A stretch of DNA of 13,460 bases, from assembly GCA_030592605.1 (NCBI GenBank), contig JAUVIT010000012.1, positions 1-13,460 on the forward strand. Direction: 5' to 3'. The notes beneath the pieces were generated by a model. The model made no database searches. It had not been told where the DNA came from and saw nothing but the letters and a program-made list of their open reading frames with translations. Position numbers and translations under genes: made by a program. Shown here piece by piece: positions 5,601 to 8,868 of this stretch; within the stretch, counting starts at the first letter, position 1; every line of letters starts with the position of its first letter. The stretch comes from Bacteroidota bacterium (GTDB taxonomy: Bacteria > Bacteroidota > Bacteroidia > Bacteroidales > GCA-2748055).

Positions 5601-5840
5601 AGATGCGGTCCAGTGAAATTTCCAATCTCCGCTCAGGGAGATATATCGCTGCGATGAACCAGGCTCGTCCTGCTCTGCAAGTGCCCCCGATTCGTATGCA
5701 AAAAAATCTGCATGAGGGGCCAGTTTATTGACAGCGAAAATGGTATGATCACTGTGCAGGTCCTGCTTTTCCCAGCGTTCTTTGGGGCTACAAGACAAGA
5801 GCATCAGCAAGAGCGAAATGAGAGTGCTAACTTTTACCAT
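2694..5840 (-). CDS. Beta-galactosidase, glycoside hydrolase family 2 (LacZ-like), lipoprotein
   Basis: This 1048-residue enzyme should hydrolyse terminal beta-D-galactosides outside the cytoplasm. Residues 1-17 are a lipoprotein signal ([17 protein letters not shown], Cys17 lipidated). Domain order: sugar-binding jelly roll about 65-235 ([10 protein letters not shown], ending GIEREVYL), Ig-like domain about 237-350, TIM barrel about 352-640, second Ig-like domain about 650-745, and C-terminal Bgal-small domain about 765-1045 (WYGRGPHE from W894, then QETGNKTD and GGDTSWG). The TIM barrel carries GVDRHE, R403-T-S-H406, acid/base Glu478 in SLGNE, nucleophile Glu541 in [10 protein letters not shown], and WDWVDQ, matching Glu461 and Glu537 of E. 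coli LacZ. Length is close to LacZ (1023) plus the signal. The ATG overlaps the last 14 bases of the upstream fusion gene, implying translational coupling. The family also includes exo-enzymes for galactose on glycans or amino acids, so lactose need not be the natural substrate. Confidence 0.96.
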
Positions 5841-8800
5841 AATCCTGCATAAAATCTTCGCTGAGTACTCTTTTCAATGCTCCAAGAAGTTCATCCGCCT
5901 GGAACCTGGAGAAAACCAGGGGAGGTTTGATCTTCATCACATTCACATCCTTTCCATCGGTGCTCATGAGGATCCCCAGCTCCTTCATCCGCTTAGCCAG
6001 GTAGCCTGCCTTTTCTGTCTGAGGATTTAACTCCTGATCGCACAGCTCTATGCCCAGGAAGAGGCCCTGTCCGCGAACCTCCCCGATGATAGGGAAATCC
6101 TGTTGCATTTTTGTGAGCTCCTCCTTCAGGTAGCTCCCGGTATTCATGGCATTTTCCTGCAGCCCCTCCTCTCGGATCACACGCAATACCTCTGTTCCAA
6201 TGGCGCAGGAGACCGGATTTCCACCGAAGGTGTTGAAGTACTCCATGCCGTTGACAAAGGCATCTGCCACTTCACGGGTGCATACTACTGCTGCCAGGGG
6301 ATGTCCATTTCCAATGGGCTTTCCAATGGTGACTATATCGGGGATCACGCCATAAAGCTGGAACCCCCAGAATTCTTTACCTACTCTGCCACACCCCACC
6401 TGCACCTCATCGGCAATGCATATTCCACCAGCCTCCCGGACCATGGCATAGGCCAGCTCCAGGTAGTTATCGGGGAGCTCAATCTGTCCACCGCAACTGA
6501 TGATACTTTCACAAATAAATGCTGCAGGCTTTCTGCCTAAAGAGTGAATATGGTCGATCTGTTCATGAATGTGAGCTGCATACCTTGGTCCGCAATCATC
6601 TCCTCTGTGTATGCCTCTAAACCTATCAGGGAGAGGCACTATGTGGGTGTGTTCCGGTGCCCCGGAGCCCCCTTTCCCATCAAACTTGTAGGAGCTGACA
6701 CTTACACAGCCGGAGGTGTTTCCATGGTACCCCACCTCCACGGCGATCATATCTTTTTGTCCGGTGCATGCCTGAGTCATGCGAAAGGCCATTTCGTTTG
6801 CTTCACTTCCTGAGTTTACAAAATGGACCACTGACAGTTCTTCAGGGAAGGTGCTGAGCAGTTCACGGGCAAAGGTATTGATGTTGTCGTGGAGATAACG
6901 GGTGTTGGTGTTGAGCACCGCCATCTGTTGCTGTCCGGCCCTTACCACCCTTGGATGTTCGTGTCCCACATGGGCCACATTGTTTACCGTATCGAGAAAC
7001 CTTCGTCCCAGGTGATCGATCAGGTAGGCCCCGTCGCCCCGAACGATTTTTAAGGGTTCACTATAAGAGAGACTCAGACTTTTCCCAAGGTGCTCTTTTC
7101 TGTAAGCGATGGTCTCTACGGTATCCACAGAAGGTAGAATCTGAAGTCCAGGCTGGCCGAACAAGAGCTTGGGATCGGGACAAAGGCTTTTCCAGACCTC
7201 TACCTCATCGGGATAGGCAACTCCCGGAAAGTCGTTTTCATATTCGAGGAGTGAGAGCATGATTTGAAAATGGAGGTGAGGTGCCCAGTTTCCATTTTCC
7301 AGGTAGTTGCCGACTCTCCCTACCAACTCTCCTTGTAGGATCCGATCCCCGGCTTTCAAAGCCACCACACTATCGATGGTCTGGTGTCCATACAGAGTGT
7401 AAAATTCCATGCCCTCCTCGTGGTGCTTCAGAATAATCAGTCCCCCATACTCCTTCTCGCCTTCATCATTGACCGCGGTGACCACTTCCCCGTCAAACAG
7501 GGTGTGGACCGGGGTTCCTACCGGGACCCAGAAATCGATCCCCAGGTGGATGGTACGGCTCTCCTTTCCGCTGTTGCCCATCCTGTCGTAGGCCTCTGAA
7601 GTATACAGGGCCCTGGGTTCCAGGTATCCACCTGCGATGATTTTATCCGGCACTTCTGCCTGTAGCCTTTCAATCTTAAACTGGAACAGCTCCAGGTCAT
7701 TGGCCATCTCACGATCCCCGATCAGAATACTTGATACACTCAGATCCAGGGATTGAATGCGTTCTTTGCCGATAGAGGGAAAGAGCGATGACAGCTTAAC
7801 CGGATTCTCAGAAGCCCAGGTGCTGAATGCTGCTTCATGGGGGTGTGCAGCATACCCACATGCTTTTCTGAAGCTATAATGGGCGAACTCCTTGCGAACC
7901 TGTTTCCATAAGCTGAGCACCTCCCATGCCGGGGCTTCACTGATCAGCAGGTATTCGTTTTCAGGTTCTTTCTTCCGGTTGATGGCCGATGTGGTGACCA
8001 TGATCACCAGACGCATGGCTACCAGAACATAGAGCATCTCCACTTCTTCTTCCAGGAGAGGGAGCTGGCGGTGGAATCCTTCAACCAGCGGGAGGGCAGC
8101 ACTTAACACATCGGGTTTCCTCATAACCGCGTAGGCGATAGTGACGGCCAGTTCGTTAATTACCTGGGTATTCACCGCATCGCCATAATCAAAGATGGCC
8201 TTTACCTCTGGATCGATCAAGTTATCAGTCACCACCACATTGTTGTCGTTGGCATCGTTGTGTATTACGCTTTTGCGGAGGCTTGAGTAATCTTCCTGAA
8301 TCTTATCGAAGAGCTTCTGGAAATAGCTTACGATCTCCAGTTTATCATTTGAGAAAAGGTGTGTGAATTCGCGGGTCCACCCTGCCCGGGCCAGATCCCA
8401 TTCAAAATCACGTTCGGCCAAGGGATGTTCAAATCCTTGAAGTGCTTTGGTAAGCCTGCCTACTTGTTGGCCCAGACTAAAAAGCAAAGCATCCTTCACA
8501 GGGTTTACAGATGACCAAAGCCTGCCATCTATCCAGGTGAGCATTCTGACTTTCCTGGGATTTCCCTTATGGTCGGTAAATTCACTGATAAAGTTTCCAT
8601 GAACGTCAGGCAAAATAACCGGAGATTCGATGTCTGTGTCACTTTCGGCCACATGCTGCAGGATCTCATTCTGAAATCCAAGATACTCCAGGTCAGCCTC
8701 CGGCCGGCTCACTTTCAACAGGTACTTTTTGCCATCCGAATCGATCCTGAAATTGAAGTCAATCCACCCGGGAAAGGAAACCGCCACACCCTTTATTCCA

Positions 8801-8868
8801 AAAAGATCATGTGTGATTTGTTCAGCCTGTTTTGCTGTTATCTTAATCTTAGGGTAATCTGTTGTCAT
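5827..8868 (-). CDS. Trifunctional fusion: hydroxylysine-kinase-like APH domain, M23 peptidase domain, class-III PLP ammoniophospholyase/aminotransferase
   Basis: This 1013-residue protein has three domains and no signal peptide, so it is probably cytosolic. Residues about 15-335 are an aminoglycoside-phosphotransferase-type kinase: catalytic H203-x-D205 to N210 (Brenner motif) and metal-binding D227-Y-G-D230. Features such as [16 protein letters not shown] and PENEYLL recall vertebrate hydroxylysine kinase AGPHD1. Residues about 400-560 are an M23 (lysostaphin-type) peptidase with complete zinc ligands H441-LGI-D445 and H533, plus H495 and H531. Residues about 585-1005 are a class-III PLP enzyme: NNVAHVGH near 629, NSGSEAN 685-691, D820-EVQVG and Schiff-base Lys850 in IGKPIGNG. 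This part resembles AGXT2L1/AGXT2L2, which split phosphoethanolamine or 5-phosphohydroxylysine to an aldehyde, ammonia and phosphate. Inferred function: phosphorylate a hydroxylated amine and eliminate phosphate in one polypeptide. The exact amine and the role of the peptidase domain are unknown. Databases would often call it just aminotransferase. Confidence 0.93.

Follow-up and report, generated by a model that had tools for sequence, protein, structure and literature searches.

In vertebrates, hydroxylysine is handled by two separate proteins, the hydroxylysine kinase HYKK (AGPHD1) and the lyase PHYKPL (AGXT2L2); the paralogue of the latter, ETNPPL (AGXT2L1), belongs to the same clade of pyridoxal 5'-phosphate (PLP) enzymes as the protein described here. 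The amino acid and its glucosyl-galactosyl (Glc-Gal) glycan are hallmarks of collagen. The closest bacterial systems are the phospholyase of Arthrobacter aurescens (A1RDF1; PDB: 5g4i), a single-domain chain of 446 residues that sits on a long branch in our tree, and two families of fused proteins: NF004799 (PRK06148), which NCBIfam describes as a 'hypothetical protein', and PRK06149, a kinase-aminotransferase. Here we analyse a 13,460-nucleotide stretch of a Bacteroidota genome (contig JAUVIT010000012.1, positions 1 to 13,460; 'the window'), in which a minus-strand gene (5827..8868) encodes a kinase / M23 peptidase / PLP phospho-lyase fusion of 1013 amino acids. We liken it to the vertebrate pair in its proposed chemistry, but here the pathway would lie in one chain that also carries a peptidase. 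With PRK06148 it shares all three domains and their order over the full length, with no structural difference seen, and it is a member of this named but unexplained family; its kinase and PLP ends are also like those of PRK06149, against which it scores 722 bits, below the cut-off of 973.

A collagen-utilisation cluster described for Colwellia encodes a hydroxyproline epimerase, a D-hydroxyproline dehydrogenase and proline peptidases; in the accessible part of that paper there is no kinase-lyase or hydroxylysine-glycan branch, and neither 'hydroxylysine' nor any word beginning 'lysine' occurs (PMC7883544). Human PGGHG, a member of glycoside hydrolase (GH) family 65, removes Glc from Glc-Gal-hydroxylysine according to the accessible text of another report (PMC8626586); the corresponding step proposed here would fall to a GH63-like enzyme, of a different family. 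Among the matches listed in our searches of the open-access literature, no paper dealt with bacterial breakdown of hydroxylysine or its Glc-Gal glycan by a kinase and a lyase, and none of those matches proposed the substrate, the partner genes of glycosidase and lysine type or the contrast between live and dead M23 centres set out below.

We consider it likely that the fusion is a cytoplasmic hydroxylysine-degrading enzyme within a wider system for the use of collagen glycopeptides. The original prediction, made from this DNA, had left the physiological substrate open; the gene neighbourhoods of the family point to 5-hydroxylysine rather than ethanolamine. Following the proposed route from the outside of the cell inwards, an alpha-glucosidase and a beta-galactosidase would strip Glc-Gal from hydroxylysine outside the cytoplasm, the GH2 enzyme whose gene overlaps the fusion in the window removing Gal from Gal-hydroxylysine; hydroxylysine or short peptides would then enter the cell, where the middle M23 domain, as an active metallopeptidase, would probably free hydroxylysine from the short imported peptides. 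The N-terminal APH-type domain would phosphorylate the 5-hydroxyl of hydroxylysine with ATP, and the C-terminal PLP domain would convert the resulting 5-phosphohydroxylysine to 2-aminoadipate semialdehyde, phosphate and ammonia. From here, a piperidine-6-carboxylate/aminoadipate-semialdehyde dehydrogenase would yield aminoadipate, which would pass by way of 2-oxoadipate to D-2-hydroxyglutarate (through HglS, a 2-oxoadipate dioxygenase/decarboxylase) and on to 2-oxoglutarate (through D-2-hydroxyglutarate dehydrogenase). The 2-aminoadipate semialdehyde that 5-phosphohydroxylysine is expected to yield has piperidine-6-carboxylate as its cyclic form. As for the first step, the GH63 enzyme YgjK of Escherichia coli prefers or makes Glc-alpha-1,2-Gal. 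The accessible part of one paper says only that an alpha-glucoside, not nigerose, was presumed to be its natural substrate (PMC9061262), and the glycan of collagen is Glc-alpha-1,2-Gal on hydroxylysine (accessible part of PMC8626586). We infer the substrate, the order of reactions, the place given to each step and any channelling between domains. More doubtfully, we propose that at least three phyla may possess a dedicated and partly clustered system for Glc-Gal-hydroxylysine, in which a single cytoplasmic chain might combine the M23 cut, phosphorylation and elimination, with passing of intermediates from domain to domain. If the hydroxylysine reading is right, a widespread family labelled 'hypothetical protein' or 'aminotransferase' would gain a substrate and a path to 2-oxoglutarate, its genes could serve to mark microbes that feed on collagen, and the puzzle of its middle peptidase would turn into a testable question.

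The reading frame of the fusion runs uninterrupted on the minus strand from 8868 to 5827, plus-strand frame 1 being broken by stops. Three Pfam domains match above their cut-offs: APH at residues 34–254 (PF01636, 65 bits), within a kinase domain of residues ~1–345 (7834..8868, minus strand); Peptidase_M23 at 440–537 (PF01551, 62.5 bits; 7258..7551, minus strand), which is further identified by its conserved residues and PDB matches; and Aminotran_3 at 605–1002 (266 bits; 5863..7056, minus strand), a PLP fold-type I domain with its Schiff-base Lys850 at codon 6319–6321. The NF004799 model spans residues 6–1005 with 1148.4 bits (cut-off 1128), and all three Pfam domains are present in 119 of 120 homologues (61–96% identity) among the matches listed; this full-length family match and the shared domains confirm that the three-domain frame is real and not a product of chance. 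The chain of three domains at 5827–8868 had been proposed in the original prediction, which named no strand and regarded the architecture as not new; both the chain and this judgement hold, the architecture being already known as a sequence (NF004799), not as a function. According to the same prediction, bacterial fusions of this kind helped in identifying the vertebrate enzymes. AlphaFold returns a full-length model with a mean predicted local distance difference test (pLDDT) score of 85.2 and a predicted template modelling score of 0.86; pLDDT falls below 50 in four short stretches of the PLP half (595–599, 713–736, 824–827 and 873–880), and the matches listed in a structure comparison of the model cover mainly the PLP part. 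No signal peptide was seen by eye and the protein is probably cytoplasmic. A search of the contigs of the window's genome with the fusion protein found one locus only.

The catalytic residues predicted for all three domains (kinase H203/D205/N210/D227, M23 H441/D445/H533 and PLP Lys850) are indeed present in the fusion, as are two further M23 residues, H495 and H531. In a close alignment of 89 sequences (that of the window and 88 homologues of at least 61% identity), D205, N210, D227, H441, D445, H495, H531, H533 and K850 are invariant, and H203 nearly so. The kinase domain has the APH fold with its catalytic Asp and Asn and its metal-binding Asp (D205, N210 and D227); in the PDB it finds one weak match, to amicoumacin kinase (E 4e-5). 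The M23 domain, which matches zoocin A, LytM and lysostaphin in the PDB, contains the motifs HxxxD, (Y/F)xH and HxH, whose five residues (H441, D445, H495, H531 and H533) we take to have the zinc-binding and catalytic roles.

A wider table of residues covers 32 proteins from Bacteroidota, Aminicenantes and Alphaproteobacteria: 28 with three domains and four PRK06149-like, the latter so named by length and branch and not by a scan against the model. (It leaves aside the three-domain genes of genomes G167, G246, G215, G270, G234, G239 and G034, the split gene at locus L050 of G135, and plasmid loci L093–L098.) D205, N210, D227 and K850 occur in 32/32 and H203 in 28/32. All five M23 residues are kept in 28/28 three-domain proteins; the set is broken in 4/4 PRK06149-like proteins (L079, L080, L081 and a gene of Sinorhizobium meliloti, which keeps two of the five), although these retain their kinase and PLP residues. 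This contrast is the best evidence for selection on the peptidase centre, and because of it we take the peptidase of the fusion to be probably active. On the tree, a single clade of three-domain proteins is not rejected (approximately unbiased test, p-AU 0.156), and the M23 state changes at least three times.

A competing view is that the M23 domain has no catalytic function and serves as a spacer or docking module that links the kinase to the lyase. In its favour, the pair manages without M23 in two-domain fusions (8/37 genomes) and as separate kinase and lyase genes (G254), and the PRK06149-like paralogues keep a middle region that has no intact M23 motif; a spacer, however, would not need the five residues that are kept across 28 diverse three-domain proteins and all 89 closer sequences, and the four paralogues show that these residues can be lost. 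We therefore regard a mere spacer as unlikely. M23 enzymes are known mainly as peptidases that act on cell walls or outside the cell and favour glycyl bonds, a preference that would suit the hydroxylysyl-glycine bonds of collagen. Release of hydroxylysine from imported peptides by this domain is nevertheless something that we infer, and the weakest step of the mechanism; it is weighed down by the occurrence of two-domain fusions, devoid of M23, in the most complete gene clusters, where the peptidase is dispensable. The PRK06149-like proteins of L079–L081, whose middle region does not contain the M23 set, lack all of the tested neighbours in the regions read around them and perhaps act on another substrate; their genes lie at ~7.5–10.5 kb, with an amidohydrolase gene near that of L079.

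Searching with NF004799 matched 37 of 296 genomes of the phylum and 11 of 295 of the class (42 genomes in all), and we compared 40 stretches around the matches by gene clustering. Recurrent neighbours include a GH63-like alpha-glucosidase (PF22422), GH42 and GH2 beta-galactosidases and a galactokinase whose TIGR00131 score of 273 bits exceeds the cut-off of 227, together with proline-racemase family, DAO oxidase, DHDPS-family and M24 aminopeptidase-P-like genes; none of the last four reaches the cut-off of its specific NCBIfam model, and their substrates are putative only. Among the fullest arrangements is a same-strand run in G025, comprising an HglS-family gene, an aldehyde dehydrogenase, the GH63-like and GH42 enzymes, the kinase-lyase and a YdiJ-like flavin adenine dinucleotide (FAD) oxidase; here the dehydrogenase scores 826 bits against the model for L-piperidine-6-carboxylate dehydrogenase (cut-off 730). 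G245 has a run of the same type, in which SusC and SusD separate the dehydrogenase from the glucosidase. Kinase-lyase, aminoadipate-semialdehyde dehydrogenase and HglS-family gene thus occur together in both genomes, which, to judge from genes alone, hold a candidate for each metabolic step except the transamination of aminoadipate. The window's own genome (G000), ~65% complete, carries the dehydrogenase (NF050084) on contig C348 and, on contig C289, an HglS-family gene (113 bits); after it comes the first part of an FAD oxidase, truncated by the contig end, which shares 50% identity with the G025 oxidase. In G126 the genes for HglS and the dehydrogenase are found together, away from the fusion. 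Beyond the phylum, an Aminicenantes assembly (L005) has GH63-like, fusion and GH2 genes in a row, and on Sinorhizobium/Ensifer megaplasmids GH63-like and GH42 genes follow 4–7 kb behind the fusion, in the annotated megaplasmid behind a sugar ATP-binding cassette (ABC) transporter. Among the 11 plasmid loci compared (L037 lies outside this comparison), three close kin have both glycosidases (L036, L093 and L094), L099 carries both a dehydrogenase, at 57% identity, and an oxidase, at 28%, and seven (L085, L086, L087, L095, L096, L097 and L098) have none of the tested neighbours.

Co-location was counted in the 37 genomes whose kinase and lyase are fused, 29 of them in a three-domain and 8 in a two-domain protein, after dropping weak matches (below 200 bits for PF22422 and PF05544, below 100 bits for PF02449 and PF02929). 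G030, G254 and G096, which have no fused kinase-lyase, and G064 and G158, which have a 955-residue three-domain relative, were left out; as far as the family searches show, none of the five has a counted match within 20 kb. A GH63-like gene lies within 10 kb of the fusion in 6 of the 10 genomes encoding such a gene (0.058 expected), a GH42 gene in 4/7 (0.043), a GH2 gene in 4/14 (0.13), a proline-racemase family gene in 5/26 (0.21) and an HglS-family gene in 3/6 (0.038), rising to 4/6 within 20 kb. These cases come from four genera each for GH63, GH2 and proline racemase and from two for HglS; at least one of the five families is found within 20 kb at 16/37 loci. Co-occurrence was assessed over the 296 genomes of the phylum, whose 37 NF004799 genomes differ from the 37 of the co-location sample: the proline-racemase family is present in 28/37 of them against 45/259 others, the dehydrogenase in 31/37 against 134/259, and HglS in 6/37 against 12/259 (p 0.015; 0.04 by genus).

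Several observations weigh against a dedicated hydroxylysine pathway. At 21/37 loci none of the five families lies within 20 kb, some of these loci being near contig ends, and the chance expectations overstate significance because the sampled genomes are related. The piperidine-6-carboxylate dehydrogenase is within 10 kb of the fusion in only 1/31 genomes (0.19 expected) and within 20 kb in 3/31; as the co-occurrence counts show, it is common in genomes without the fusion, and HglS too is found in 12 of the 259 genomes that have no NF004799 match. Conversely, at E 1e-120 no dehydrogenase (NF050084) is found in 7/42 genomes, including the four of f30 (G085, G239, G242 and G293) that have a proline-racemase gene next to the fusion. 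In G025, G245 and G000 the HglS-family genes are only remotely related to the family (109–114 bits), with no NCBIfam name applying to them, and the YdiJ-like oxidase falls far below its cut-off (582 bits against 1350). GH2 and GH42 enzymes are common, their action on Gal-hydroxylysine being only proposed. In the window's own genome, 65% complete, GH63-like and proline-racemase genes were not found; beside the fusion there is only the beta-galactosidase, with the dehydrogenase and HglS-family genes on other contigs.

Another possibility is that the glycosidases reflect ordinary use of oligosaccharides and that the fusion is a passenger among them, as the 21 loci would allow; beta-galactosidases and SusC/SusD are, moreover, common in Bacteroidota. 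Yet three different glycosidase families recur in this pairing, which spans several genera and three phyla; in G025 and G245 it extends to a dehydrogenase and an HglS-family gene that fit aminoadipate semialdehyde, so that we think a passenger role improbable.

Turning to the PLP domain, its kinship lies with phospho-lyases. Against the PDB it reaches 441 bits for human ETNPPL and 299 for the Arthrobacter phospholyase, whereas no other class-III enzyme exceeds 179; in our tree a clade of 42 rows (ETNPPL, 5g4i and the fusion proteins) is split at 100/99 from four other class-III rows, namely three racemases/epimerases and L001, an enzyme of the window's genome that in the PDB best matches acetylornithine and putrescine aminotransferases. 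The Schiff-base lysine K850 is found in 89/89 and 32/32 rows. These results support an ammoniophospholyase-type domain, apart from other class-III enzymes, and bear out the original prediction both in its pairing of a kinase with an ammoniophospholyase and in its likening of the PLP domain to AGXT2L1. The row nearest to the window's domain is that of the Aminicenantes assembly (L005, 7905–14130; 74% identity), with the same beta-galactosidase behind it, a likeness that suggests either transfer between phyla or a mis-binned contig.

Which phosphorylated amino alcohol such a lyase acts upon is a separate matter, as the position of ETNPPL inside the bacterial clade is not settled and the tree does not include PHYKPL; sequence alone does not decide between an ethanolamine-type and a hydroxylysine-type lyase. 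The pair could act on ethanolamine or another small amino alcohol, as an ethanolamine kinase and O-phosphoethanolamine phospho-lyase that would give acetaldehyde. ETNPPL, the closest solved homologue, acts on phosphoethanolamine, bacterial amino-alcohol kinase/phospho-lyase pathways have been described, and the substrate of the PRK06148 branch may not be that of the PRK06149 branch. Ethanolamine, however, explains none of the recurrent partners (glucosyl and galactosyl hydrolases, piperidine-6-carboxylate dehydrogenase, HglS-family and proline-racemase family genes), and we give it little chance. An ordinary class-III omega-transaminase, which the domain's Pfam family (Aminotran_3) and the database names of its homologues would imply ('aminotransferase class III-fold', '4-aminobutyrate aminotransferase-like', alongside 'RdoA-type kinase'), is ruled out as a working candidate by the score gap and the tree and retains the slimmest of chances: a grouping with omega-transaminases was looked for in both and not found, the domain falling instead with two phospho-lyases at 100/99 and being fused to a kinase, in a tree where L001 is the sole transaminase-type row.

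Some loci present the kinase-lyase in other settings. At L075 of G254 (7103–9459), adjacent separate kinase and lyase genes form an unfused version of the pair. In three genomes of one genus (L046–L048), galactokinase, DHDPS-family and M24 aminopeptidase genes are close to the fusion. At L086 (7220–10701), from Shinella zoogloeoides, the three-domain gene is near M55, P1 and D-aminopeptidase genes, another peptide-breakdown setting. One strain of S. meliloti (L087) has PRK06148-type and PRK06149-like genes (11335–14388 and 15587–18517) one gene apart, with genes for an Lrp-type regulator and for an amino-acid ABC binding protein next to them; in the locus of another strain (L036), the PRK06148-type gene is accompanied by glycosidases.

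Within the window itself, the fusion stands in a minus-strand series of genes. Its stop overlaps by 14 nucleotides (5827..5840) the start of a GH2 LacZ-type beta-galactosidase (2694..5840; Pfam GH2 domains, and 1028 bits against the NF052611 cut-off of 999), an arrangement that makes translational coupling possible. The N-terminus of this enzyme, read by eye, is of lipoprotein type, and the gene cluster to which it belongs is also found beside the fusion at L005, L051, L056 and L059. No SusC/SusD was found among the window's scanned genes, though both are present in the relatives G285 and G245. On the plus strand, a divergent MacB/FtsX-type ABC permease, ADOP-like (10467–12842), has no link to the pathway that we could see. 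Serine hydrolases of the beta-lactamase family (PF00144) flank the pair on the minus strand, one 39 nucleotides upstream of the fusion (8908..10395) and one 62 nucleotides downstream of the beta-galactosidase (1411..2631), and a third gene with a beta-lactamase-family domain (3–1400) runs off the contig end. Two of the three bear a weak likeness to D-aminopeptidase, PBP4B and AmpH, and the flanking hydrolases are possibly peptidases or esterases of the fusion's pathway.

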